A stretch of DNA of 64,000 nucleotides, taken from Allorhodopirellula heiligendammensis. Lineage in GTDB: Bacteria; Planctomycetota; Planctomycetia; Pirellulales; Pirellulaceae. Below are positions 370 to 17,362 of this stretch, piece by piece. Both the position numbers and the translations under genes were made by a program. The notes under the pieces were generated by a model. The model did not search any database. It had not been told where the DNA came from and saw only the letters and a list, made by a program, of their open reading frames with translations. Numbering within the stretch: position 1 is the stretch's first letter; the number at the start of each line of letters is the position of its first letter. The stretch covers positions 1,849,739 to 1,913,738 of the forward strand of contig NZ_SJPU01000002.1 in the NCBI RefSeq assembly GCF_007860105.1, written 5' to 3'.

Positions 370-3300
370 TTAGGGATCACAGGCGGGCCAGAGTACCACA
401 TTTCCATCCCTACCCGCCGTCATCATGAGTGATCCGTCTGAATTGAACTCAATGGAATTCACGCCGTCGCGGTGCCTCACTAAATCGAGCAACTCTCGTC
501 CAGTCGGGCCCATCGGATAAGTGTCGTCGGTGCCCGAGGACGCGACGCCAAATCGTGGATCCCATACTCGAATGCTGCGGTCGTGAGAGGCGGTGAATAA
601 GCGTAGCGTCGATGGACTCGAGGCCGCAAGAGTTTCGTCGTGTTCACCACGGGTGGAGCTGTCGTTCGAAACTCTGGCGAAACCATTGGGGCCGTCTGGG
701 TTGGACCGATTCGCACTCGGTTCCAATTCGTCGAGCTGCGGGCCAGCGACCGGAGCGGCACCGATGAGTGCCACACCATGAATGGCCTCGGCATGTCCCT
801 GAAAAATGGTATCCGGTGGATCAGCAGGAACGTGTTGTTTCGAAAGATCCCACATTCTCGCCAGTTGGTCGTCGCCTCCAGCGGCCACGAACCGTCCGTC
901 GGGTGAAAAGCATCCTGCAAAAATACTGCCAACGTCGGGATCCGCGAACAACACCTGTTGGGTTTGTTCGGTCAGATTATGCAAGATCACGTGACCACGA
1001 TCCGTTGTCGAGAGCAGCTGGCGGCCATCAGGCGAGATCGATAGTGACAGCGGAATTCCCATTTCTCCCACGCCTACTGACTCAACCGAGGAGAGTTTGC
1101 CGAGTTCAGTGAAGCTGGGCGTGTCGCGTTGGAAAGCCCATCGCCGGATCGAACCGTCGGCGCCGCCCGTAAAGAAATCATGCGGGGCTGTATCGCCGAC
1201 AAACTCGATGCACCGTACTGCTTTGCCATGCGGCGACTCCAGTTTACCGAGGGCAAGACCGGTATGCGCATCCCAGGCCTTCAAGCTTTGGCTTCCGGTC
1301 AGCACGATTTCTCCGTCAGGCGAAATTGCCGCGACGCTGATCGCTCCATGAATGCGGTAACTTACCTCCAGACCACGCGTGGCCGTGTTCCAACGATAAG
1401 CCGAGTGCCCATGCAGCGTGACTAATTGGTCGCTTCCGGCAGGGGCGGCGGCTGAGACATCGCCGAGACGCTTGGGCAAACCCATGGCAATTTCTTTGGT
1501 GGACTGACGAATGTCATCAGCGGCTCGCCAACGCTCGACACGTGCAGGGGCATCTCCGGGTGGGTTGACCGCGATGTATGCGTGCTCACCTGATTCATCG
1601 ATGGCGACCGACGCGATGCCAGGACTCCCTCCGGACCGAGTTCGGTCATCCGTTTTAACGTGTTGTGTAAAAATCGTCTGGAACGCCGCGGGTTTTGTTT
1701 CCAGTGGCAGTTGCCACAGCACCGCATGATGGATGGTGGAGTCAACTTTTTGCAGTTTGGAAGAGGTGACCGCACGGCGGCCATCGCCGGAGAGTTTCAC
1801 ACTCGTGACGATCCCATCGTGATCCAATCGATCAATCAATTCACGAGAATTCAGGTCCAGTTGGGAGAGCCGCTCGTCGTCCGCCGCGACCCATACAGTG
1901 TCTCCGTCTGGCGCCACCGCAATGTCGTTGATCCGCGTCCCTAGCAGCAGGTCGATGGGCTTTCCAATCGGCGTACCCGTTTGAACATCCCATAAGATGA
2001 TCCGCCCGGCGCGGTCCGCGGTCAACGCTCGCCGTCCGCCTGCGTCAACAGCAGCTGCGGTGACGGCCTCCTGATGTCCAGCGAGACGATGTTGGGCGAC
2101 GGCAATGGACGTTTGCGGATCAAAACGCCACAGGATCACCCGCGTTTCTGGATCGCTCGATCCCGTCAAGATCACACGGCTGTCGTCCGAGACTGCTAGG
2201 ACCTGGTTCAATCCTGTGCCCGAAATCGTACCCGATTCAGTTCCGCGTCCCAGATCCCAAATGCGGACGACCGCATCCGCCCCGCCAATGAAAAGTTTGT
2301 TCGCTGAACGATTGATATTCATCGACATCGCTCGGAAATCAGTGCCTTCGTCCAGTGAAATGATCGGCGACTCGGGAGCGTTCGATGACGTGCTGGCGCG
2401 AGTCGGAGCGTCAGCGGTCTCAATCTCGACCGCAGTTCTCAGCTGCAGTGTAGACGGATCAATCGTGAGCACTCGTGCGGTGCGATCACGACTCGCCGTG
2501 ACGACTTGCTGTCCATTCGCCGAGAGGATAGCAGAGGAAATCGAATCGTCATGGACGTGGGAGAGAATGGGGTCGTGCACGATGAGTGTCGCACAGAGGT
2601 CACTCAGTGCATCACTTGCTGTGATCCCCGGCGGAGCGTGTCCGGCGGCCTGTTGGCCAACTAGAACGCTGGCACTGCTCGGTGCCGAATCGACGCCGGA
2701 GCGCCAGAGGCGAATCGAATCGTCCTTGCCAACCGAGAGCAGCTGATCGCCATTGGGAGTCAGGAATCTGGCATCTGTCACCACACCGCCGTGTCCGCGT
2801 AGGGTCCGTTGGAGGCGAGCAGCGGGAGGCGTTGTCGGAAGTTCAATCGGTTCCATGCGCCATAGCTGAATCAAGTAATCATCACCGCAGGTGAGTAGCG
2901 ATTTTCCATCGGCAGAAAACTCAATATGACGTACACTCGAACGGTGCGCTGGTGCAGGCGGTGACGTTTCCTCGGACTCCGGCGTTTCGGTCTCCGGATT
3001 GTTGAGTTGGGTAAACGTCATCGACTCCGAATCGCTAGCAGTAGGACGAGTCGTTTCCAGCGGGCCGTTAGCAACGGCCTCGCTCACCGCGTCAACCGCC
3101 TGTTTGACGAGACGCTCGACATCTCGCTGTTGAAGTTGTGATACCGGCCACAACATCACACGACCGTCGACGTCTCCAGAAGCGGCGATCTGGCCGTCGG
3201 GAGAAACTGCGACACTGGTCACGGACTGGGGGTGTTCGGTGAAGACGCCACGCCGCTCGGACTGCAGTTTCTCTCCTGTCTGGATATCCCAAACCACTAC

Positions 3301-6078
3301 TCGGCCGAGAGCTTTGTCTGCCACACCGGCAACGATGCGGAAACCATCGGGGATGTTACTGCAGGCAATATCGACGACAGATGCGATGTGCCATAGGATT
3401 TCACGATCGGTAGGTTGATTGAGGTTCCAGATACGAACGGTGCGGTCATCCGATGCTGACACGAGGTAATCCTTGCCAATCATTTCGATGGTGGTCACGC
3501 GTCCGCGATGCCCTTGGAATCGACGGAATTGCAAATCGGCGGACAGGGTAGCCTCACCGAGTGCGCGGGGATCGAACAGCAAAATGTCGCCCTTCTCCGT
3601 GCCCGCTGCCGCGAGAGTTTCATCGTCGTTGATGGCGATGCAGGAAGCGTGCTCGCCGTCGGGCAAACGAACCGGACGCGGCGTGTCCACAACGATGGGC
3701 TGGTCAGCGTTTGCCACGACAGTAATCGCTGTCAGAGTTCCATCCTCCAGGCGAATGATTGCGGGAATGCCGGAGACAGGTCGACCGGGGTTGCCGGCAA
3801 CGGCCAGTCCGCCCACTCCCGTCGTTGTGCTCAGGGATCCAGTCGACTGATTGGCGAGCGATGAGAGATACCGCAACTCCCACGGGACCTTGCCGTCTCC
3901 CTGCTGGGCGATCAGTTCCTGGATCAGTCGCCGCGCTTCGGTAAACTCATTGCGATCAATGCGGGCCTTGGCAAGGCCGACCCCGGAAACATACGCTTCG
4001 TATTCGGCTTTCGCCTGAGCCAACTTTGCCCGCTCGGCATTTTGTTGTGCGGTAACTGCGTTGGACTCCGCAATGCGGGCATTATCCTCGGCGATATCAG
4101 CGTTCTCGTCCGCAGTGCGAGCATTGCTCATCGCGATGCGAGCGTTTTCGTCGGCACGCTGTTTCTGATCCATCGCCGCCGTCCGGGCTTGATTGATCAC
4201 CACGATCGCGACCGATCCACCGATCAAGATGAACGCCAGCAACGCGGCGGCAACTTTTTTGAGCACCGCAAATCGTGTTTCTCGCTGCCGTCGTTGCTGC
4301 AGTGATAACTTGAGGCTTTCAACCAATTCGGTGTGTTGTGGATTCTGCTCGTCGAGCAGTTTTAGGCCCAAGTCATAGTCTTCGTTTTGATGAGCCGCTT
4401 CGGCATGCGAAAATTTGGCTTGTTCAAGGCCACTTTGGGCGGCCTCGTTACCAGGCCACAACGCGAGAGCCTCCTCAAATCCGAATTGAGCGCGGGTATA
4501 ACTTGTATAGGACCGTTCCTTGCAGGCGATGCGCAGGTCGTCCTCCGCTCGTTTGACCAACGCGATGCTCTCGGCATGAGAGCGGTACTTCCGAATCGCG
4601 TTTTGAAATTCCGTGGTCTCAGCGTATCGGTCGGCAGGATCGAGGGACATCGCTTTGAGTGCGATGTTCATCAATTCGCCCTGATGTTTTGGATCGAACT
4701 CACAGATGTCGTTGTTGGCAACGGCCCGCAAGCACTGACTCACATTGGGTGCATGATGAGGCGGTTTGCCTGTGACGATCATGAACAGCGTCGCCCCGAG
4801 CAAATAAATGTCGGCAGCAGGTCCTACCTTTTCGAGCGGCCCCGTGGCCATTTCGGGCGCCATCATGGAGGGCGTGCCACCGAGACCTGTCGCGGGCGTG
4901 ATCGAATCAAGCTTCTCAAAGTTTGGCTTGGCAAGGGCGATGCCCCAGTCCATCACCATCACGACGCCGAAGTCGCCCAGCATCACGTTCTCAGGTTTGA
5001 TGTCGCGGTGGACGACACCTCGCGTATGGGCGAAACCAATCGCGTCGGCAACCTTGATGAGAATCTCCAGGTTCTCTTCCTGTGTTTTCTCTCCAATGAC
5101 GTCCGACCATGGCGTGCCGATCACGCGTTTCATGGAATAGAACAGCGTGCTGTCACCCGTTAACGCCACGTCGTGAATGGGCACGATATTGGGGTGGTCA
5201 AGATCTCCCGTGACGACCGCTTCCGTCAAGAATTGTTGACGTCGTCCCTGTTCGACGCTCTCAAGTTGGCCGTTCTCGGCGAGCTGTTTGCGTTTGGACT
5301 CGTCCAGCGGCCGGATCACCTTAACCGCGATCAGTCGATCCAGTGATCCTTGACGGGCGACGAAAACGTTACCCATCCCGCCGCGCCCGAGCAATCGCAC
5401 GAGCCGGTAGTCAGCAGCCTCGCCATCGCTATGGATTTGCGTGGCGACCGTTTGACTGCGAAGTTGTAGCTTCGTTTCAACAATCGTCCGGTCGACCACG
5501 CTGGGCTGAATGGTGGGATCGTTCGGCGAGGTGAACTCAGCCGACATTTCGGCCCAGTACTTTGCCTCGGCGGAGGAGAGGGCCCGAGGATTGATGGTCT
5601 GGTTGAGATTAGAATCATTTAAAACAGAGCCGCTACCCTCTTCGCCTGTACCAGGAGCTGCACCCAGATCGATTGAGAAATTGCCGGTGGCCTCTATCGT
5701 GGCATTCGCATCAAAAGTACCGGAGTGCTCGATCGTAGCGTTAGCGTCAAAGTGATCATCCACCTCCAGGGTGGCATCGGGGTCGAATTCATCGGCCTCC
5801 TCGATGGTCGCATTTGGATCAAATTCGACTGTTTTCTCGATGGTCGCATCGGCGTCGAAGTGGGCCGTCTTCTCGATGGTCGCCCCTGGATCTAACTCGG
5901 CGGCATCCTGCACGGTTGCATTGGGGTCGATGTTTGCTGTTTGCTCGATAGTTGCATTCGGATCGAACGCATTGGCATCCGAGATCGTGGCGTCCGCATC
6001 AAAACCAGTAATCTCGTTAATGGTGGCATCCGGGTCTTGATCGGGCACTTTTTTATCGCGATCCATCATCCAACTCAT
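370..6078 (-). CDS. Serine/threonine protein kinase with N-terminal repeats, one TM segment and WD40 repeats
   Basis: A 1902-aa membrane-anchored kinase. Residues 15-128 are ten copies of a 12-residue unit of the form [F/L/I]-D-x-x-A-T-[I/V/L]-E. The kinase domain spans about 224-500, with glycine loop GRGGMGNV, ATP-binding K253, catalytic HRDIKPEN (357-364) and DWG (377-379) in place of DFG. A single TM segment lies at about 606-628, followed by an Asn/Ala-rich coiled-coil-like stretch (about 640-690). The remaining 1200 residues are a series of WD40-type repeats with many SPDG and WD-like ends, probably forming one or two propellers. It should phosphorylate Ser/Thr on proteins, with the propellers as binding platform. 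Its start overlaps the stop of the upstream LEPR gene by 26 bases, which suggests coupled translation. ATGs at 6069 and 6066 are alternative starts. Kinase-WD40 fusions are common in planctomycetes; the substrate is unknown. Confidence 0.93.
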   Translation of the reverse strand: MSWMMDRDKKVPDQDPDATINEITGFDADATISDANAFDPNATIEQTANIDPNATVQDAAELDPGATIEKTAHFDADATIEKTVEFDPNATIEEADEFDPDATLEVDDHFDANATIEHSGTFDANATIEATGNFSIDLGAAPGTGEEGSGSVLNDSNLNQTINPRALSSAEAKYWAEMSAEFTSPNDPTIQPSVVDRTIVETKLQLRSQTVATQIHSDGEAADYRLVRLLGRGGMGNVFVARQGSLDRLIAVKVIRPLDESKRKQLAENGQLESVEQGRRQQFLTEAVVTGDLDHPNIVPIHDVALTGDSTLFYSMKRVIGTPWSDVIGEKTQEENLEILIKVADAIGFAHTRGVVHRDIKPENVMLGDFGVVMVMDWGIALAKPNFEKLDSITPATGLGGTPSMMAPEMATGPLEKVGPAADIYLLGATLFMIVTGKPPHHAPNVSQCLRAVANNDICEFDPKHQGELMNIALKAMSLDPADRYAETTEFQNAIRKYRSHAESIALVKRAEDDLRIACKERSYTSYTRAQFGFEEALALWPGNEAAQSGLEQAKFSHAEAAHQNEDYDLGLKLLDEQNPQHTELVESLKLSLQQRRQRETRFAVLKKVAAALLAFILIGGSVAIVVINQARTAAMDQKQRADENARIAMSNARTADENADIAEDNARIAESNAVTAQQNAERAKLAQAKAEYEAYVSGVGLAKARIDRNEFTEARRLIQELIAQQGDGKVPWELRYLSSLANQSTGSLSTTTGVGGLAVAGNPGRPVSGIPAIIRLEDGTLTAITVVANADQPIVVDTPRPVRLPDGEHASCIAINDDETLAAAGTEKGDILLFDPRALGEATLSADLQFRRFQGHRGRVTTIEMIGKDYLVSASDDRTVRIWNLNQPTDREILWHIASVVDIACSNIPDGFRIVAGVADKALGRVVVWDIQTGEKLQSERRGVFTEHPQSVTSVAVSPDGQIAASGDVDGRVMLWPVSQLQQRDVERLVKQAVDAVSEAVANGPLETTRPTASDSESMTFTQLNNPETETPESEETSPPAPAHRSSVRHIEFSADGKSLLTCGDDYLIQLWRMEPIELPTTPPAARLQRTLRGHGGVVTDARFLTPNGDQLLSVGKDDSIRLWRSGVDSAPSSASVLVGQQAAGHAPPGITASDALSDLCATLIVHDPILSHVHDDSISSAILSANGQQVVTASRDRTARVLTIDPSTLQLRTAVEIETADAPTRASTSSNAPESPIISLDEGTDFRAMSMNINRSANKLFIGGADAVVRIWDLGRGTESGTISGTGLNQVLAVSDDSRVILTGSSDPETRVILWRFDPQTSIAVAQHRLAGHQEAVTAAAVDAGGRRALTADRAGRIILWDVQTGTPIGKPIDLLLGTRINDIAVAPDGDTVWVAADDERLSQLDLNSRELIDRLDHDGIVTSVKLSGDGRRAVTSSKLQKVDSTIHHAVLWQLPLETKPAAFQTIFTQHVKTDDRTRSGGSPGIASVAIDESGEHAYIAVNPPGDAPARVERWRAADDIRQSTKEIAMGLPKRLGDVSAAAPAGSDQLVTLHGHSAYRWNTATRGLEVSYRIHGAISVAAISPDGEIVLTGSQSLKAWDAHTGLALGKLESPHGKAVRCIEFVGDTAPHDFFTGGADGSIRRWAFQRDTPSFTELGKLSSVESVGVGEMGIPLSLSISPDGRQLLSTTDRGHVILHNLTEQTQQVLFADPDVGSIFAGCFSPDGRFVAAGGDDQLARMWDLSKQHVPADPPDTIFQGHAEAIHGVALIGAAPVAGPQLDELEPSANRSNPDGPNGFARVSNDSSTRGEHDETLAASSPSTLRLFTASHDRSIRVWDPRFGVASSGTDDTYPMGPTGRELLDLVRHRDGVNSIEFNSDGSLMMTAGRDGNVVLWPACDP
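5692..6036 (-). repeat. Ten-copy 36-bp / 12-residue repeat in the kinase N-terminus
   Basis: The coding sequence carries ten consecutive 12-residue units, each centred on D-x-[N/D/A/G]-A-T-[I/V/L]. The threonines fall at residues 19, 31, 43, 55, 67, 79, 91, 103, 115 and 127, an exact period of 12 (36 bases). The DNA copies have diverged from one another while the Asp, Ala and Thr positions are kept, which points to selection on the protein rather than recent slippage. Confidence 0.95.
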
Positions 6079-9076
6079 TGGCAGGCACCGTATCTAACAT
6101 TTCGATCTGGCCCGGGAGATCGAGCACTTCAAGTTCGAGTGGGGCACCCTCAATCTCGTTCTCGACGATGATGGCTTTGCCGCCGCGGAGGTCGACCCGT
6201 AGGATCAGTCGCTCCTCGCTATTGCCAATCACATAATCGATTTCGTAGGCGCCATCAGGTAGTTCCGCGAATAGCTCATCCAAGCGATCTTCCGCGAGGA
6301 TACTGTCGGGCAGTCGTATCGGCTCGATTAAATCTTCGCCGTTTGGATCCGGCGACAGGGTGCGCAGTTGAAAATACTCGTCGCGGATTGACGGTGGCGA
6401 TGCGGATGATTCGACCGTATCGACTACGACGCTGCTGAGCTGAACAGAGGAAGTCAAAATCACCGGCGGCGTCGGCTCGATAGGTTCTGGCAGCACATCG
6501 CGGACGGGAAAAAATGCCATGGGCACATTCACACGGGGGATCACGAAGAAAGCTCGACCGCTCTCAAGTGGGGCCGTCAGAGGATTATCGGTCGACGATA
6601 TTAAGCGTCCGGGAACCGAATTCTGTAATGTCGGTCCGCCTGCGGTCGCAATCTGGTTGGCCGGCACGGTCTGCTCAACCGAGTCGCCGGTGACCACGAT
6701 GGACGCATGATGCGAGACGGCAAAACGGACGGCTAACGGATCGGTTGCACTGCCGCGACCGTTGAGTGTCGAGTTCAAAATATCGGACTCGAGATAGACG
6801 TGGGATACGTCGACTCGGGTATGGTCGCCCGGCAAGTTGTCGAGTTGCTCAAAGCGGTTGGAAATCCCGCCCCAATCAATAAAGAGCGAGAGACCATTTT
6901 CGCCGGCGGCGCCAATGTCAATCGAAAGCACCCCCGATGCATCGTTCTCATTCGCCTGAGTTAAAATATCCGTCTCGATCGATTCCACATCATAAAATGC
7001 GGTTTCAATTTTGACGTAGTTCGGATTGGTGGGGTCCGTGATCACTCCTGGATAAACAGGTTGGATCTGGCCGGGAGCGACGACAGTGAGTTCAGGCCGC
7101 GGCGCAAACCGGTGTGCGATACCGACCCCATTGCCGGTATTGATCTCAAAATCGTTGCCGATCACCACGCTCGGAGCATTGATGCGCACCGCTGCGTCGC
7201 TGACTTGGCTCGCGTAGATTTGAATTGAATCACCGGCGATCCATGCATTGCCCGCCGACATCATCAATCGCCCGTTGTCACCACCTGCAATGATTTCGCG
7301 ATCTCCTCCACTGCCATCATTGACGACGCCTTGGTCCAGGATGCGAATGTCGCCGCTGGCGACAATATTGATTTCTCCGTTTTCTGTATTCAGGACGTTG
7401 TCATTACCGATGGTCGTTGAGACCAGATCTAAAGAACCGGTGACGCTAATATTGATGTCGCCCCGCGCACCACCGCTGGCGGTTTCAATCTGGTGGACTG
7501 TCAGTGTCGCCCCTGGCAGTCCGTTGACGTTACTATGCACATCGACAGTTCCCCCACTGACGATTCGGTCGACAGTTCCGATCGAATTGCCGGTGCTGGA
7601 CAGATCCACGTCGCCGGCGGCGTAGATTGACACGAGATCCGCTGAGATGCCGGTGCCTGCCGCCTGGCTAATGGCGTCACTCACGGGTGCGCCGACGTCT
7701 CCGATCTGGAGTGAACCATCAACGACATCGATCTCACCGAGCCGGATCTGATTGGCGTTGTCGATCGTGATCAGTCCACCGGCGCCATCGGAGAGGAGCG
7801 TACTGGTGGCGAAATCAATGTCATCACCACCGCCGTCGACATGAATGGTGTTCGCGACCAGATGGATGTTGCCGTCTGCTACACCTGAGACACCGGCATC
7901 GAGAAAGAGGTCAATGGTGTCGATTGAATTGGCGGTGCTGGACAGATCCACGTCGCCGGCGGCGTAGATTGACACGAGATCCGCTGAGATGCCGGTGCCT
8001 GCCGCCTGGCTAATGGCGTCACTCACGGGTGCGCCGACGTCTCCGATCTGGAGTGAACCATCAACGACATCGATCTCACCGAGCCGGATCTGATTGGCGT
8101 TGTCGATCGTGATCAGTCCACCGGCGCCATCGGAGAGGAGCGTACTGGTGGCGAAATCAATGTCATCACCACCGCCGTCGACATGAATGGTGTTCGCGAC
8201 CAGATGGATGTTGCCGTCTGCTACACCTGAGACACCGGCATCGAGAAAGAGGTCAATGGTGTCGACTGAATTGGCAGTGCTGGACAGATCCACGTCGCCG
8301 GCGGCGTAGATTGACACGAGATCCGCTGAGATGCCGGTGCCTGCCGCCTGGCTAATGGCGTCAGTCACGGGTGCGCCGACGTCTCCGATCTGGAGTGAAC
8401 CATCAACGACATCGATCTCACCGAGCCGGATCTGATTGGCGTTGTCGATCGTGATCAGTCCACCGGCGCCATCGGAGAGGAGCGTACTGGTGGCGAAATC
8501 AATGTCATCACCACCGCCGTCGACACGAATGTCTTCTGCGGTGAGGATCAGGGTATTGCTGGATAGGTTGGATGCGTCCGCGTTGAGCGAGATGTCGAGC
8601 GAGTCGCTGCCAATTCCGCCATCGGCACTGACATTCAGACCGACGGGAACATCGATCCGCAGCGAGTCGTTGCCGGCACCCAGGTTTGCCGTCAGCCGGT
8701 TGGAAGTGATTTTGCTGGGGTCGAGCGAGTTGGTCGTAATCGGATTGCCCGCTCCGTCCGTGCCGATGCGGATCGGCACGAGGCCGTTGGCATCAAAAAT
8801 CTCAATTTCCCCGGCTGTGTTGAGCGTCACGTCCACGACATCGTCAGTCGCATCGCCCGAGATGAGCAAGTCACCTGTGCCCATCAATTCCGCCGTTGCG
8901 TTGAGCACGATCCGAGGTTCGAGCACCCTCACGCGTGGGATCCATGGCTCGTGGAGAGTCGAATGCGACTGGCGGTGGTGATCATGCTGCTGAGGGGATT
9001 CGAGCAAACCCCGACGCCAGTGACCGCGCACGGCATCAAAAATCGAGCGGAATCGGTATGGCGAGCGGAATTTCAT
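6053..9076 (-). CDS. LEPR-motif surface/adhesin-like protein with tandem repeats
   Basis: A 1007-aa protein. After a basic N-terminus comes the motif LEPRIVLNA (about residues 52-60), the mark of planctomycete LEPR-XLL proteins, thought to be large exported or surface proteins. The middle is rich in Gly, Asp, Asn and beta-branched residues, with short periodic strands like filamentous adhesins and autotransporter beta-helices. It includes almost three copies of a 114-residue unit. The C-terminal third has different, Pro-rich and acidic segments. No catalytic motif was seen. The gene is followed by the kinase gene with a 26-base overlap and preceded at 93 bases by the DUF3127 gene on the same strand. 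The LEPR assignment is firm by motif; a role in adhesion or envelope structure is inference. Confidence 0.85.
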   Translation of the reverse strand: MKFRSPYRFRSIFDAVRGHWRRGLLESPQQHDHHRQSHSTLHEPWIPRVRVLEPRIVLNATAELMGTGDLLISGDATDDVVDVTLNTAGEIEIFDANGLVPIRIGTDGAGNPITTNSLDPSKITSNRLTANLGAGNDSLRIDVPVGLNVSADGGIGSDSLDISLNADASNLSSNTLILTAEDIRVDGGGDDIDFATSTLLSDGAGGLITIDNANQIRLGEIDVVDGSLQIGDVGAPVTDAISQAAGTGISADLVSIYAAGDVDLSSTANSVDTIDLFLDAGVSGVADGNIHLVANTIHVDGGGDDIDFATSTLLSDGAGGLITIDNANQIRLGEIDVVDGSLQIGDVGAPVSDAISQAAGTGISADLVSIYAAGDVDLSSTANSIDTIDLFLDAGVSGVADGNIHLVANTIHVDGGGDDIDFATSTLLSDGAGGLITIDNANQIRLGEIDVVDGSLQIGDVGAPVSDAISQAAGTGISADLVSIYAAGDVDLSSTGNSIGTVDRIVSGGTVDVHSNVNGLPGATLTVHQIETASGGARGDINISVTGSLDLVSTTIGNDNVLNTENGEINIVASGDIRILDQGVVNDGSGGDREIIAGGDNGRLMMSAGNAWIAGDSIQIYASQVSDAAVRINAPSVVIGNDFEINTGNGVGIAHRFAPRPELTVVAPGQIQPVYPGVITDPTNPNYVKIETAFYDVESIETDILTQANENDASGVLSIDIGAAGENGLSLFIDWGGISNRFEQLDNLPGDHTRVDVSHVYLESDILNSTLNGRGSATDPLAVRFAVSHHASIVVTGDSVEQTVPANQIATAGGPTLQNSVPGRLISSTDNPLTAPLESGRAFFVIPRVNVPMAFFPVRDVLPEPIEPTPPVILTSSVQLSSVVVDTVESSASPPSIRDEYFQLRTLSPDPNGEDLIEPIRLPDSILAEDRLDELFAELPDGAYEIDYVIGNSEERLILRVDLRGGKAIIVENEIEGAPLELEVLDLPGQIEMLDTVPANELDDGSR
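7570..8524 (-). repeat. Near-identical 342-bp tandem repeats (2.8 copies) inside the LEPR gene
   Basis: The same landmark (the end of GTGCTGGA) recurs at 7600, 7942 and 8284, spacing exactly 342 bases. Copies lie at about 8183-8524, 7841-8182 and a partial one at 7570-7840. Only scattered single-base differences are visible, for example Thr versus Ser in the GAPV[T/S]DA segment. The unit encodes 114 residues from VDGGGDD to HLVANTI. The low divergence suggests recent duplication or gene conversion. This stretch is prone to assembly collapse. Confidence 0.95.
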
Positions 9077-11298: not shown

Positions 11299-12579
11299 TT
11301 ACCGGACCAAAATCAGGGCCCGCGTGATGACATCGTCACCGGCGCTCGACGACGACTCGGGTTGCTGCAGATCCTTACTCGATGGAATAGCCTCTAGCGG
11401 CAGAAATGTCTGTTCGCCCAGCAACTCGCGAAACGCCGCCAGCTCTTCACTGTCGTTGCTTTCCAGTTCGAAACTCAGCGGCTCGTCATGCTGAATTTTG
11501 GTGGCGTCGACACGAGTCAGCTTGCCGACCATTTGCAACATGGGAGCATCGGTGATCAGTGACAACCCAACCGCCTCTACCAATCGTGGTTCCTGCTGCA
11601 AACTCAAGAACAAGCGATCCACTTTCTTTGCGGAGGCCTGCAAGAAAATGACTTGAAATTTGGCCTCCTCATCAAAAGTATCCGCCCGCTTTGCCGCCGC
11701 GATCACGTCACGATTGATCGGTAGGCGAGGTGCGTCCTGCAAGCCGGCCTGACGCATCGCGTCACTGAGTACGTCCATCTGGCGACCCTGTGGACTCAGG
11801 CGTACCTCGTAGACCATCATCGCGCCCGTGAACGGCGAGTCGACTAGCAAGGAGGCGTCATCGCCGACGGACACCGTCGGTGAGCGATCCATTGCCTCGC
11901 TGGGAGTTGGTAAGGATACGATTGCATTCGGTGATGGACGGCTCGGTTCATCAATGCGGTTTGGTTCGCTCGGTAGTTCACCTACGGCCGCCTTGGGAGC
12001 ATCCGCCGATGCAATCATCGGTTCAGGCTGGGGGGCAATGGGTTCAGTGGGCCCATTGATCTGGGCGGTCTCAATGTCGACCAACGGCCGCTCTGGATCA
12101 GCAGCGGGCTGCGGCTCGGATGTGGCGGACGGTTCATGCTGTGCGATCACAGGAGCGTCCAGTTCATCTGGGGAGTTCAAAGAGGTGATCAGCAAGACTG
12201 CAGCGGCGGTAGCTACCAAGCCAAGAATCAGCGACACGCGACGCCGATTACGTGCATCGATTGGTTGCTCACAAGTTAGCGATGTATGCGTTTCACCGTT
12301 GTTGTCGGCCGTCTGATCGCCTTCCATAGCCAATCTTCGGCGACGACTCTCTGCAAGCACGCGAGCGGCAAAGTCCCTCTTCAAGTGAGGACCCGTCGAG
12401 TGCTGCGCAGCAAAGAGTGCACGTAGATCCTCGCGATCTGCACGCATCGCATCGAACTGCGATTGCAAGGCGGGGATCTCCTGCATGCTCTGTTGCAGCA
12501 TCTGCGTATCCGTCTCGTCCAGCTGGCCATCGAGATGGTCGCTGAGGAGTTGGTCGAAGTCGGGTTCGGGAGCTGACAT
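11299..12579 (-). CDS. Putative anti-sigma factor-like membrane protein
   Basis: 426 aa. The N-terminal ~75 residues (FDQLLSDHLDGQLDE, then helices with ALQSQFDAMRADREDLRALF) look like the cytoplasmic sigma-binding half of an anti-sigma factor, without the Cys/His zinc motif. A single TM segment lies at 115-133. A long Pro/Glu/Ala-rich linker (about 140-230) and a predicted folded C-terminal domain, probably periplasmic, follow. Planctomycetes often place such proteins behind ECF sigma genes, but none is seen upstream here: 12580-12864 holds no sigma gene. The assignment rests on architecture only. It could instead be an unrelated single-pass protein. Confidence 0.65.
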   Translation of the reverse strand: MSAPEPDFDQLLSDHLDGQLDETDTQMLQQSMQEIPALQSQFDAMRADREDLRALFAAQHSTGPHLKRDFAARVLAESRRRRLAMEGDQTADNNGETHTSLTCEQPIDARNRRRVSLILGLVATAAAVLLITSLNSPDELDAPVIAQHEPSATSEPQPAADPERPLVDIETAQINGPTEPIAPQPEPMIASADAPKAAVGELPSEPNRIDEPSRPSPNAIVSLPTPSEAMDRSPTVSVGDDASLLVDSPFTGAMMVYEVRLSPQGRQMDVLSDAMRQAGLQDAPRLPINRDVIAAAKRADTFDEEAKFQVIFLQASAKKVDRLFLSLQQEPRLVEAVGLSLITDAPMLQMVGKLTRVDATKIQHDEPLSFELESNDSEELAAFRELLGEQTFLPLEAIPSSKDLQQPESSSSAGDDVITRALILVR

Positions 12580-15522: not shown

Positions 15523-16029
15523 TCAGGCGAGGTGGGTGACTCCCATCGCTACCAATGTCAGATAGACGAGGGACGTTGCGATGATGAGTGGTGAGAGCGT
15601 TTGCACAACGCCGCTCCGGGCGATCCACAAGGCGACCAATCCAGGGATGACAAAGCCGATCACAGTCATGCTCTGCATCCACGCCAGTGAACTTGCTGGA
15701 TCAATGACCGCGCCACCGGCCATCGACGAGCTGACGCTGGGCCACACCATTTCCAGGGCGCCACGTAGCGTCGCTGCAACGGCAAATCCAAAGACCATCG
15801 TCAGAACCACTCGGCGACGACCGAACAAGATCGCGTACCGATCGACTTCATGAACTAACCAGGCCGTCAACAACGCAGCCAAAATTGTGGCAATAATGGT
15901 CAGGGGTTGATCGAACGAGAGGGCCAAATAGCCCGGCACAATCATCCCCCCGACGCTCAATCCAAACGCTTCGGTGAACAGCAAACTAACGACCAAACCA
16001 ATTCCAATCGACAGAGCGAGCCATTCCAT
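15523..16029 (-). CDS. pgsC: Poly-gamma-glutamate biosynthesis protein PgsC/CapC
   Basis: A 168-aa polytopic membrane protein of about five hydrophobic segments, starting MEWLALSIGIGLVVSLLFTE and with the family motif GLSVGGMIVPGYLAL. PgsC works with PgsB as the membrane part of poly-gamma-glutamate synthase. The frame is open upstream to 16149, but those residues overlap pgsB and look unlike the family. The ATG at 16029 starts one base after the pgsB stop, so translation is probably coupled. The length is close to the usual ~150 aa. Confidence 0.92.
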   Translation of the reverse strand: MEWLALSIGIGLVVSLLFTEAFGLSVGGMIVPGYLALSFDQPLTIIATILAALLTAWLVHEVDRYAILFGRRRVVLTMVFGFAVAATLRGALEMVWPSVSSSMAGGAVIDPASSLAWMQSMTVIGFVIPGLVALWIARSGVVQTLSPLIIATSLVYLTLVAMGVTHLA

Positions 16030-16030
16030 T

Positions 16031-17362
16031 TCAAACCATCTCCAGTACACGCGTGGGGGCTGATTGGGGAAGTGCGTATCGCTCCCAGCCTTCCTTCTGC
16101 TCGAAAAAGTCTGCCAACGCCATCCCCGGGCCAGCGATATTGCCGACACCCATTAGCAGCATGCCAGTATCTGAGTTTTCAGCGACGGCTGTCTTCTCAG
16201 CGACCGCCGTGGTCGCTCCTGCGCCGCTGTGCTTTTGCGTGCGTGCGGCCGCTTCAGCGGCGAACGACTCCAATAGCATTGTGACGACTTCGTCGCCGGA
16301 GGCATTGCCCAAGCAAAGTATGCGATTCTGGTCGATACCACCCTTGAGCAACCGACGCAGAAAGACGTCGGTGCCCGATCCGATAATGACGACGCGGTCG
16401 TAAGCTCGCCAGTTAACACAGGCATTCGCCATGGTCACTGAGCGGTCGATGCGGTCGACCCGGCAGTTCATGACCAGCACCCGGCGTGACACGCCGGGGA
16501 AATATTCGTAGGCAGCATCCCAAATACGAGTCGTTGACTCGGGGTCGTTCGCGGCGAAGGCGTTGACGAAGTGCCACGAGTCGCCTCGCACCGTTTGTTG
16601 GTGGACTCGCATCGCACCTGGATCTGGCTCAGCCGCCCACATCCCCTGGAGCGCAACATCTCGGGCCACGCCGAGTTGATCGCAAACCGCGAGCGACAAG
16701 GCTACGTTTTCAGCGTGCTCCAGGTAGGAAAACTGCGCGAGCTCTTCTGGCGTGATCATGGCCGAGTCAGCGGCGGTAATGTTTTTCAGCGACGAACCCC
16801 GGTCCGCACAAGCTGCGCCCATCACCTGCAATGAGTCAGCGCGGTCTTCGGCCGTCAATAGGGTGCCCCCGACTGGGACGGTTGCTGACAGGGCGCGGGC
16901 AACATCGAGCCGCGTCGGCCCCATCACATCGAGATGGTCGGCACGTGCATTGGTAATCACGCCGTGAGTTGAGCGGACTAGCTTCAATTCGCAAACCGAT
17001 TGCAACAAGGGCTGCAGGGCCATGCACTCGATTACGAGTGCTTCAGCACCCTCAGCAACCGCGGTTTTGACAATGCGTTTCTGCTCGATCACGTTCGCGC
17101 GATCGGGGCGGAAAATCGGCAACTCTCGGCCGTCATCGAAAATCATTCGCGCCAACGTCCCCGTGGTCTTGGCACAGGTGCGTATTCCACCAGCCCGTAA
17201 TCCTGCCGCGATCAACCGTGTCACCGAGGACTTGCCCCGTGTGCCGTTGACGTGAATCCGATAAGGGATTTTTTTGAGTTGACGGTGGTACCACCACGCT
17301 TCCAAAAGGGCAACCGAACCAACGATGGCGGCAACTGCCACCAATGCTACCAAGCCGTTCAC
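16031..17362 (-). CDS. pgsB: Poly-gamma-glutamate synthase PgsB/CapB
   Basis: 443 aa. An N-terminal TM segment (about 4-22) is followed by a Mur-ligase-like ATP-binding domain with P-loop GTRGKSS (40-46). Later conserved blocks are AEALVIECMALQP, GVITNARADHLDVMGPT and FVNAFAANDPEST. PgsB activates and ligates glutamate through its gamma-carboxyl to build the polymer. The family is about 390-400 residues; the extra length here is mainly an Ala/Thr-rich insert near residues 375-400 that contains AVAEKTAVAEN, a short duplicated motif. It is first in the operon pgsB-pgsC-pgsW. No pgsA/capA gene is visible in the window. Confidence 0.93.
   Translation of the reverse strand: MNGLVALVAVAAIVGSVALLEAWWYHRQLKKIPYRIHVNGTRGKSSVTRLIAAGLRAGGIRTCAKTTGTLARMIFDDGRELPIFRPDRANVIEQKRIVKTAVAEGAEALVIECMALQPLLQSVCELKLVRSTHGVITNARADHLDVMGPTRLDVARALSATVPVGGTLLTAEDRADSLQVMGAACADRGSSLKNITAADSAMITPEELAQFSYLEHAENVALSLAVCDQLGVARDVALQGMWAAEPDPGAMRVHQQTVRGDSWHFVNAFAANDPESTTRIWDAAYEYFPGVSRRVLVMNCRVDRIDRSVTMANACVNWRAYDRVVIIGSGTDVFLRRLLKGGIDQNRILCLGNASGDEVVTMLLESFAAEAAARTQKHSGAGATTAVAEKTAVAENSDTGMLLMGVGNIAGPGMALADFFEQKEGWERYALPQSAPTRVLEMV

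Follow-up and report, generated by a model that had tools for sequence, protein, structure and literature searches.

A threonine-motif tail on a planctomycete transmembrane WD40 kinase as a candidate multisite phosphoacceptor

Introduction

Partner choice by bacterial Ser/Thr kinases is poorly known. The closest described system is that of the PASTA kinases, StkP of S. pneumoniae and PknB. According to passages of PMC12077195, StkP carries seven phosphothreonines in a disordered juxtamembrane region, a phosphomimetic form of which recruits division proteins; the seven sites depart from the StkP substrate motif, and an FHA reader, FhaA of M. tuberculosis, has been reported for PknB. A second relevant group is the planctomycete WD40 kinases described in passages of PMC11032199, with a cytoplasmic kinase, a membrane span, and C-terminal WD40 repeats mostly predicted to be periplasmic; no threonine array is described in those passages, and the terms "disordered" and "phosphorylation sites" are absent from its text. 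Here we analyze a kinase of this second kind, encoded in a 64,000-nucleotide stretch of Allorhodopirellula heiligendammensis (contig NZ_SJPU01000002.1, positions 1,849,739 to 1,913,738; the whole stretch is referred to below as the window), whose N-terminal tail contains ten threonine motifs at an exact spacing of 12 residues.

Clustered threonines in a disordered N-terminal region, read by FHA domains, are known from the SQ/TQ cluster domains of Rad53/Chk2-type kinases, which are phosphorylated by another kinase at T-Q; we claim no homology between these clusters and the tail described here. The likeness to StkP and PknB lies in a disordered, cytoplasmic, Thr-rich region of a membrane Ser/Thr kinase (passages of PMC12077195), although the tail of the window kinase is N-terminal to the kinase domain, away from the membrane, and built from a repeated fixed motif, and the outer part of the protein is WD40, not PASTA. 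Our interpretation, made with moderate confidence, is that the array represents a local version of a multisite Thr phosphoacceptor tail, disordered and cytoplasmic, that is attached to a membrane Ser/Thr kinase. By analogy, the tail would resemble the phosphorylated juxtamembrane region of StkP and PknB in an amplified form and is probably autophosphorylated. Such tails, in which one Thr motif recurs about 5 to 30 times, would provide a candidate consensus and a bait for phosphothreonine readers, and they offer a test of multisite rheostat models outside eukaryotes.

Results and discussion

The array lies on the minus strand at 5683..6042 and consists of ten 12-residue units (residues 13-132) of the form [FIL]-D-[PA]-[ND]-A-T-[IVL]-E-x4, unstructured in the AlphaFold2 model described below. 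The initial annotation, made from the sequence and its open reading frames (ORFs), had reported ten units of 12-residue period from T19 to T127 in the context D-x-x-A-T-[I/V/L], mostly followed by Glu, and the translation confirms this: the array threonines are residues 19, 31, 43, 55, 67, 79, 91, 103, 115, and 127, Asp at -4 and Ala at -1 are present in 10/10 units, position +1 is Ile in eight units and Val and Leu in one each, and position +2 is Glu in 7/10. The full array extends slightly beyond the location given there, 5692-6036. When residues 13-139 were shuffled 10,000 times and equal-period runs of T-[IVL] were scored at periods 5-30, no run exceeded 4, compared to the 10 observed. At the DNA level the units are inexact, with a mean pairwise identity of 0.58 (0.42-0.72), and the array is absent from the Tandem Repeats Finder listing. 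Among the 45 unit pairs, synonymous differences number 27 at the Thr codon, 35 at Ala, and 25 at Asp, with 0 replacements at these three positions; the median number of synonymous substitutions per site (dS) is 1.6 versus 0.44 for nonsynonymous substitutions, as determined for the 20/45 pairs with a computable dS, the other 25 being left out. The array thus exceeds chance and is kept at the protein level while its DNA has drifted, and both points are confirmed.

To place the tail within its kinase class, we used two sets of loci. A search of 98 genomes with the whole protein gave matches at E <= 1e-20 in all of them, many over the kinase domain only; 40 of 41 loci from the best matches, window kinase included, form the first tail set (L073, lacking an ORF, was dropped). 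With the pre-kinase and kinase regions as a query, matches at E <= 1e-70 were obtained in 75 of 198 genomes, and 20 further loci, chosen by score and family with their tails unseen, form the second set; 19 of these belong to a family of another order, possibly Planctomycetales. Tail starts, including those of the other kinases of the window's genome examined below, are approximate, being the first Met of a stop-to-stop ORF. In a separate set of rows, four distant ones with an unclear frame or X were dropped (L151, L159, L160, and L163). In the first set, Thr-[IVLM] occurs 585 times, compared to 191 in shuffled tails, whereas Ser-[IVLM] is not enriched (164 versus 184 expected), and the C-terminal parts of the same proteins show no excess (679 versus 645 expected). 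All first-set tails but one, L069, exceed their own shuffled mean. The second set behaves similarly (185 versus 71 expected for Thr; 98 versus 112 for Ser), with 20/20 tails above the shuffled mean, L188 barely so. Enrichment over shuffled tails is thus 2.6- to 3.1-fold for Thr-hydrophobic and 0.9-fold for Ser-hydrophobic pairs; these counts are not independent trials, since the tails are related.

Between 5 and 30 Thr-hydrophobic motifs are present in 59 of the 60 tails, which span two planctomycete orders. Over 833 sites, the consensus reads D(-4), D/N(-2), A/Q/K/R(-1), T, I/V/L(+1), D/E(+2), and Ser sites in the same tails lack a comparable context. The spacing varies: close relatives of the window kinase have a modal value of 12, members of the R. 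europaea clade one of 7 (in runs of 6 to 8 consecutive sites), and L040 and L071 one of 6; several other tails fall at 14-18, and many are irregular. Backbones differ as well (D-x-D-A-T-V-E, Q-T-V-D-A-S, Q-T-I-D-L-P, D-Q-T-L-D-S, and K-T-F-V-S-D-D). The exact 12-residue period is therefore local and not a conserved feature, the motif being kept instead, and the Thr-motif tail belongs to a kinase class across two orders rather than being a 12-residue repeat of one protein. Since relatives in two orders keep the motif and not the spacing, a multisite phosphorylation tail is suggested.

The same consensus could be read in another way. The tail may consist of short docking motifs that are never phosphorylated and bind a partner, or the kinase cleft as a pseudosubstrate, with Thr chosen for shape or hydrogen bonding. 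Many docking motifs likewise have a wide conserved context, which here runs from -4 to +2 and favors Ala or Gln before the Thr (-1) and a hydrophobic residue after it (+1). On the other hand, the kinase that bears the tail has its catalytic motifs intact, a simple pseudosubstrate would not need as many as 30 copies in one protein, and the preference for Thr over Ser fits phosphothreonine readers or Thr-preferring kinases, though a binding pocket could demand it too. We regard docking without phosphorylation as rather unlikely.

Several class members carry additional features next to their tails. In many distant members (several loci among L023-L034 and L052-L074), a zinc-ribbon-like CPxC...CPxCG segment stands at the start of the protein and precedes the Thr tail; among three CPxC-type tails scanned, one matches zinc-ribbon models, under the cutoff, and the Rhodopirellula tails examined are without the segment. 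Farther afield, a kinase from a Myxococcales metagenome-assembled genome (L147, 7524-12266) has repeated TDETYVA and TDETFA motifs ahead of its kinase domain, and T-[IL]-L-P before the kinase domain is common to kinases of Myxococcota, deltaproteobacteria, and Aminicenantes (L159-L161, L165, L167, and L169).

We then considered whether the array is confined to this class. A kinase search of the window's genome gave 63 matches, counted as about 59 places because four kinases were split in two. Besides the window's own, 46 of the 58 loci were readable (the other 12 yielded no ORF bearing the catalytic pattern and were dropped); four of these 46 have fewer than 16 residues ahead of the kinase domain and were counted as zero. 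None of these 46 kinases has such an N-terminal array: the top z scores are 2.9 (L080 and L111), compared to 6.3 for the window kinase, and Thr-[IVLM] occurs 70 times in their N-terminal parts versus 57 expected and 244 times in their C-terminal parts versus 240. With the array as a query, no other match in this genome was better than E 0.88. The array of a relative matched in 6 of 100 Pirellulaceae genomes. Three of these matches are the window kinase, the R. solitaria kinase, and a 212-residue fragment at a contig end that looks like the missing N terminus of the R. sallentina kinase; the other three are weak (E 1e-5 to 1e-4) and contain no coding array, two being without such an array and one lying in a tandem DNA repeat that is interrupted by seven stops in the frame of the match. 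Occurrence of the repeat in unrelated non-kinase proteins, named in the initial annotation as a finding that would refute its proposal, was thus sought in the window's own genome and in 100 Pirellulaceae genomes and was not found.

We had considered strict confinement of the motif to one kinase class, a view softened by a different kinase of the window's genome, L094, which ends in VTMDQTIDRNAFDQTMDE (VTMDQTID...DQTMDE, three motifs). At least one Thr-hydrophobic motif follows the kinase domain in 20 of the 25 loci fetched with the C-terminal half of L094 (L229-L253; L094 included), as MDATMD, FDQTLE, EATMDS, DATIEQTV, or DVTIDA on otherwise different tails, these being raw counts on short tails; several fit D-[AQ]-T-[ML]-[DE]. 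Since L094 and its relatives carry it, the core motif is not confined to the WD40 class: the long arrays belong to that class, and a second kinase family bears the core motif too. The members of the L094 family (L094, 2455-3495) are membrane kinases with a short C-terminal tail bearing one to three D-x-T-hydrophobic-D/E motifs.

These results bear on a further alternative, in which the tail is phosphorylated by other cellular kinases and is merely a substrate or scaffold of a network, a view that overlaps the interpretation proposed here. About 59 kinase places in one genome, the presence of the short motif on a second kinase family, and the phosphorylation of one bacterial kinase by another, reported in passages of PMC9674922, are all compatible with it. 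However, in the genomes searched, long arrays are seen only on the WD40 kinase class, and the fused kinase is therefore the simplest source of phosphate; we consider a tail served by other kinases unlikely.

Structure prediction was based on an AlphaFold2 model computed from a 28-row alignment; in a 7-row, 700-residue model, the kinase was unfolded (mean predicted local distance difference test [pLDDT] score of 47), and its disorder call was not used. In the 28-row model, residues 1-165 are nearly all below a pLDDT of 50, with no secondary structure save a short helix at 155-159, while the kinase domain scores about 80-98 except at 381-400 and has PknB kinase domains as its closest solved folds. 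The tail is accordingly predicted to be intrinsically disordered, as in the StkP-type linker.

A folded repeat was the competing structural reading. A period of 12 equals two hexapeptides, and each unit can be parsed into two hexads that open with a hydrophobic residue, as in a left-handed beta-helix; Pfam Hexapep matches residues 41-68 (E 0.0016, 18.5 bits), and an LpxD-type model of NCBIfam scores 25 bits. Both scores are below the cutoffs (27 for Hexapep; 161 to 243 among the acyltransferase models listed from NCBIfam), Hexapep matches 0 of 7 other tails tested, the hexad spacing gives way to 7 in the R. europaea clade and to 14-18 or irregular values elsewhere, and no strands are predicted for the tail, where pLDDT is mostly <50 next to a confident kinase domain. 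The beta-helix was rejected on these grounds and is considered very unlikely.

Conservation between species was determined in two groups, six sequences of the R. europaea type and five of the window type, each aligned. Identity over aligned cells is 0.91 and 0.90, respectively, for the Thr of tail motifs, compared to 0.67 and 0.27 for other tail Thr, 0.39 and 0.21 for Ser, 0.69 and 0.51 for Asp/Glu, and 0.56 and 0.43 for the remaining tail residues; Thr-hydrophobic sites in the C-terminal parts reach 0.72 and 0.47. The aligner can favor repeated motifs, yet other tail Thr were scored alike. That a low-complexity acidic linker simply expanded under little or no selection, to which rapid change in repeat number, backbone, and spacing between species could be ascribed, is the least probable reading of all, given tail motif Thr kept at about 0.90 versus 0.21-0.69 for other tail residue classes, synonymous sites near saturation with D/A/T fixed in 10/10 units, and the same core on different backbones in two orders. 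The initial proposal that selection acts on the protein is borne out by these same observations; the alignments support selection on the protein and on a Thr-specific linear motif, one broader than first described.

A number of observations weigh against a phosphoacceptor tail. One class member, L069, is nearly motif free, with 2 Thr-hydrophobic sites. In the 60 columns before the kinase domain, motif Thr is identical in 0.57 (35 cells) and 0.85 (40 cells) of cases versus 0.97 and 0.82 for other Thr. Tail motif Thr that has changed became Ser in 10/52 cases versus 33/169 for the C-terminal part in one alignment group, i.e., no less often, although in the other group the proportion is lower (3/23 versus 62/209). 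A candidate linked substrate, the FHA protein L134 with NATIVSD in its C-terminal part, was dropped, as Thr-hydrophobic is found there in 7 of 27 aligned rows, its own included (L199, L222, and L226 were left out of the alignment). The residue following the DFG motif (DFG+1) is a predictor of kinase Thr preference; it is Ile in the window kinase and Leu in 44/60 class members and in 35/46 other kinases of the genome, and it was set aside as uninformative. The literature matches listed include no phosphosite data for planctomycete kinases. Described phosphosite motifs also differ: according to passages of PMC7164672, the hydrophobic residue of the M. tuberculosis motif sits at +3 instead of +1, and the StkP motif in passages of PMC12077195 is different again, without a hydrophobic +1. 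A point in favor is that the motifs in these two sources have acidic residues before the Thr, which passages of PMC7164672 describe as favored at PknA-dependent sites of M. tuberculosis; the hydrophobic +1 is not shared. Among the top-ranked open-license literature matches listed, no such Thr array is reported.

If the tail is phosphorylated, an FHA protein is a possible reader. Passages of PMC4037201 state that FHA domains bind phosphothreonine only and that the +3 rule is debated; position +3, to which FHA domains can be sensitive, varies among the array units. The genome has 8 FHA domains, the nearest on the same contig being >200 kb away, and the proteins that contain them include FHA-GAF-sigma54 activators and one FHA-GAF-phosphatase (domain names assigned by eye).

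The kinase gene occupies 370..6078 on the minus strand, like all features that follow up to the upstream gene, and encodes a membrane protein of 1902 residues with Pfam Pkinase and WD40 matches over the cutoff. Orthologues are found in Rhodopirellula solitaria, R. sallentina, R. rubra, R. europaea, Aporhodopirellula aestuarii, and Neorhodopirellula pilleata. Between the array and the kinase domain, the three looser T-I motifs listed in the initial annotation were located at T161, T189, and T198. The first is part of a constant element, QTINPRALS (residues 160-168; 5575..5601), the final strong Thr motif ahead of a short helix predicted at 169-183 in the AlphaFold2 model; QTINP and L167 are invariant across 7 aligned orthologues. 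The other two, PTIQP and RTIVE, lie at 5485..5514. The kinase domain (residues 224-479; 4642..5409) is of the Hanks Ser/Thr type, with a Pkinase score of 99.1 bits versus a cutoff of 31.7 and the catalytic motifs K253, HRDIKPEN (357-364), and MDWG (376-379), in which DWG replaces DFG; its closest solved structures are those of M. tuberculosis PknB. We note that the ORF as called overlaps the stop of the upstream gene by 26 bases (6053-6078) and that the true start may be Met4 or Met5 (MMDRDKK); the R. solitaria kinase starts with MNRDKK.

Residues 610-628 (4195..4251; Kyte-Doolittle value of 2.75 over 19 residues) are probably a single transmembrane helix, the next hydrophobic segments (1.68 and 1.59) both lying within the kinase domain. 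A heptad-like region follows (residues 630-690; 4009..4191), continuous helix in the low-quality model, and a 42-base repeat of 2.1 copies (4067-4156) encodes the heptad-like ENARIA stretch right behind the membrane segment. WD40 repeats extend over about residues 812-1902 (373..3645). A kinase domain, one predicted span, and C-terminal WD40 repeats are the features of planctomycete transmembrane WD40 kinases, with a topology suggested by hydrophobicity. No PASTA domain is present among the 25 of 41 Pfam families listed, and the PknB_PASTA model, matching residues 224-688, scores 185.9 bits versus a cutoff of 450. The WD40 region was considered as a reader of the tail and rejected, because the strongest hydrophobic segment has the kinase and tail on its N-terminal side and the WD40 repeats on its C-terminal side; if this topology is correct, the membrane should separate the two.

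Directly upstream on the same strand is a gene for an exported-type protein of 1007 residues (6053..9076), a homologue of which is also directly upstream in relatives. Near its N terminus is LEPRIVLN, spotted by eye, which we take to be a planctomycete export motif; the term LEPR-XLL does not occur in the five papers listed by a literature search for it. A conserved C-terminal domain, with approximate limits at 6122..6400, was defined by a profile from three relatives; of 58 upstream ORFs, this profile hit 39 in its first round, a number that rose to 46 on iteration (E <= 0.01, three seeds included), 5 of the 58 being shorter than 150 residues and perhaps not true neighbors. L038, L042, and L073, with no upstream ORF or none found, were left out. 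Since the profile matches 46/58, the pairing of the two genes is old and common to both orders. No NCBIfam family was found for the upstream protein, and an SLBB identity was not adopted: SLBB_2 scores 37 bits with no stretch passing alone, and the sequence resembles an exported repeat protein. Its gene contains 2.8 tandem copies of a 342-base unit (7579-8531; 114 residues) at 99% identity, a very recent expansion within the protein. A strongly basic tail (at least 7 Lys/Arg in the last 30 residues) ends 29 of 58 upstream proteins, often behind a hydrophobic stretch (L053-L072 and L172-L191), as if these proteins were membrane anchored.

For the working of the tail, we infer phosphorylation, its source, its reader, the topology, and the signal as follows. 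The WD40 region, beyond the membrane segment and probably periplasmic, would sense something linked to the upstream exported protein, the conserved neighbor gene offering a concrete guess at what this might be. An outside signal received through WD40 would activate the kinase, which would phosphorylate many Thr-hydrophobic sites in its own tail or in that of a neighboring molecule. Graded phosphorylation could then turn the acidic tail into a multivalent docking surface or a rheostat for a phosphothreonine-binding partner, possibly an FHA protein, so that the output would run through docking or through charge. More tentatively, it is conceivable that the two genes form an envelope-to-cytoplasm module of Pirellulales and the second order, comprising an exported repeat protein and a kinase whose WD40 repeats are periplasmic and whose cytoplasmic tail counts kinase activity and assembles phosphothreonine readers; the number of motifs, not their place, would be under selection and tune the output, and the D-x-T-hydrophobic-D/E code would be shared with another kinase family.

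Two further features of the neighborhood were observed. Near the kinase pair, a protein encoded at 11299-12579 has a weak TRADD-like_N match (17.9 bits, cutoff 23.7); the protein is also conserved close to the pair in R. solitaria. At 15523-17362, a CapC-like protein adjoins a protein with a Mur ligase middle domain (Pfam names), a pair that we take to resemble poly-gamma-glutamate capsule genes.

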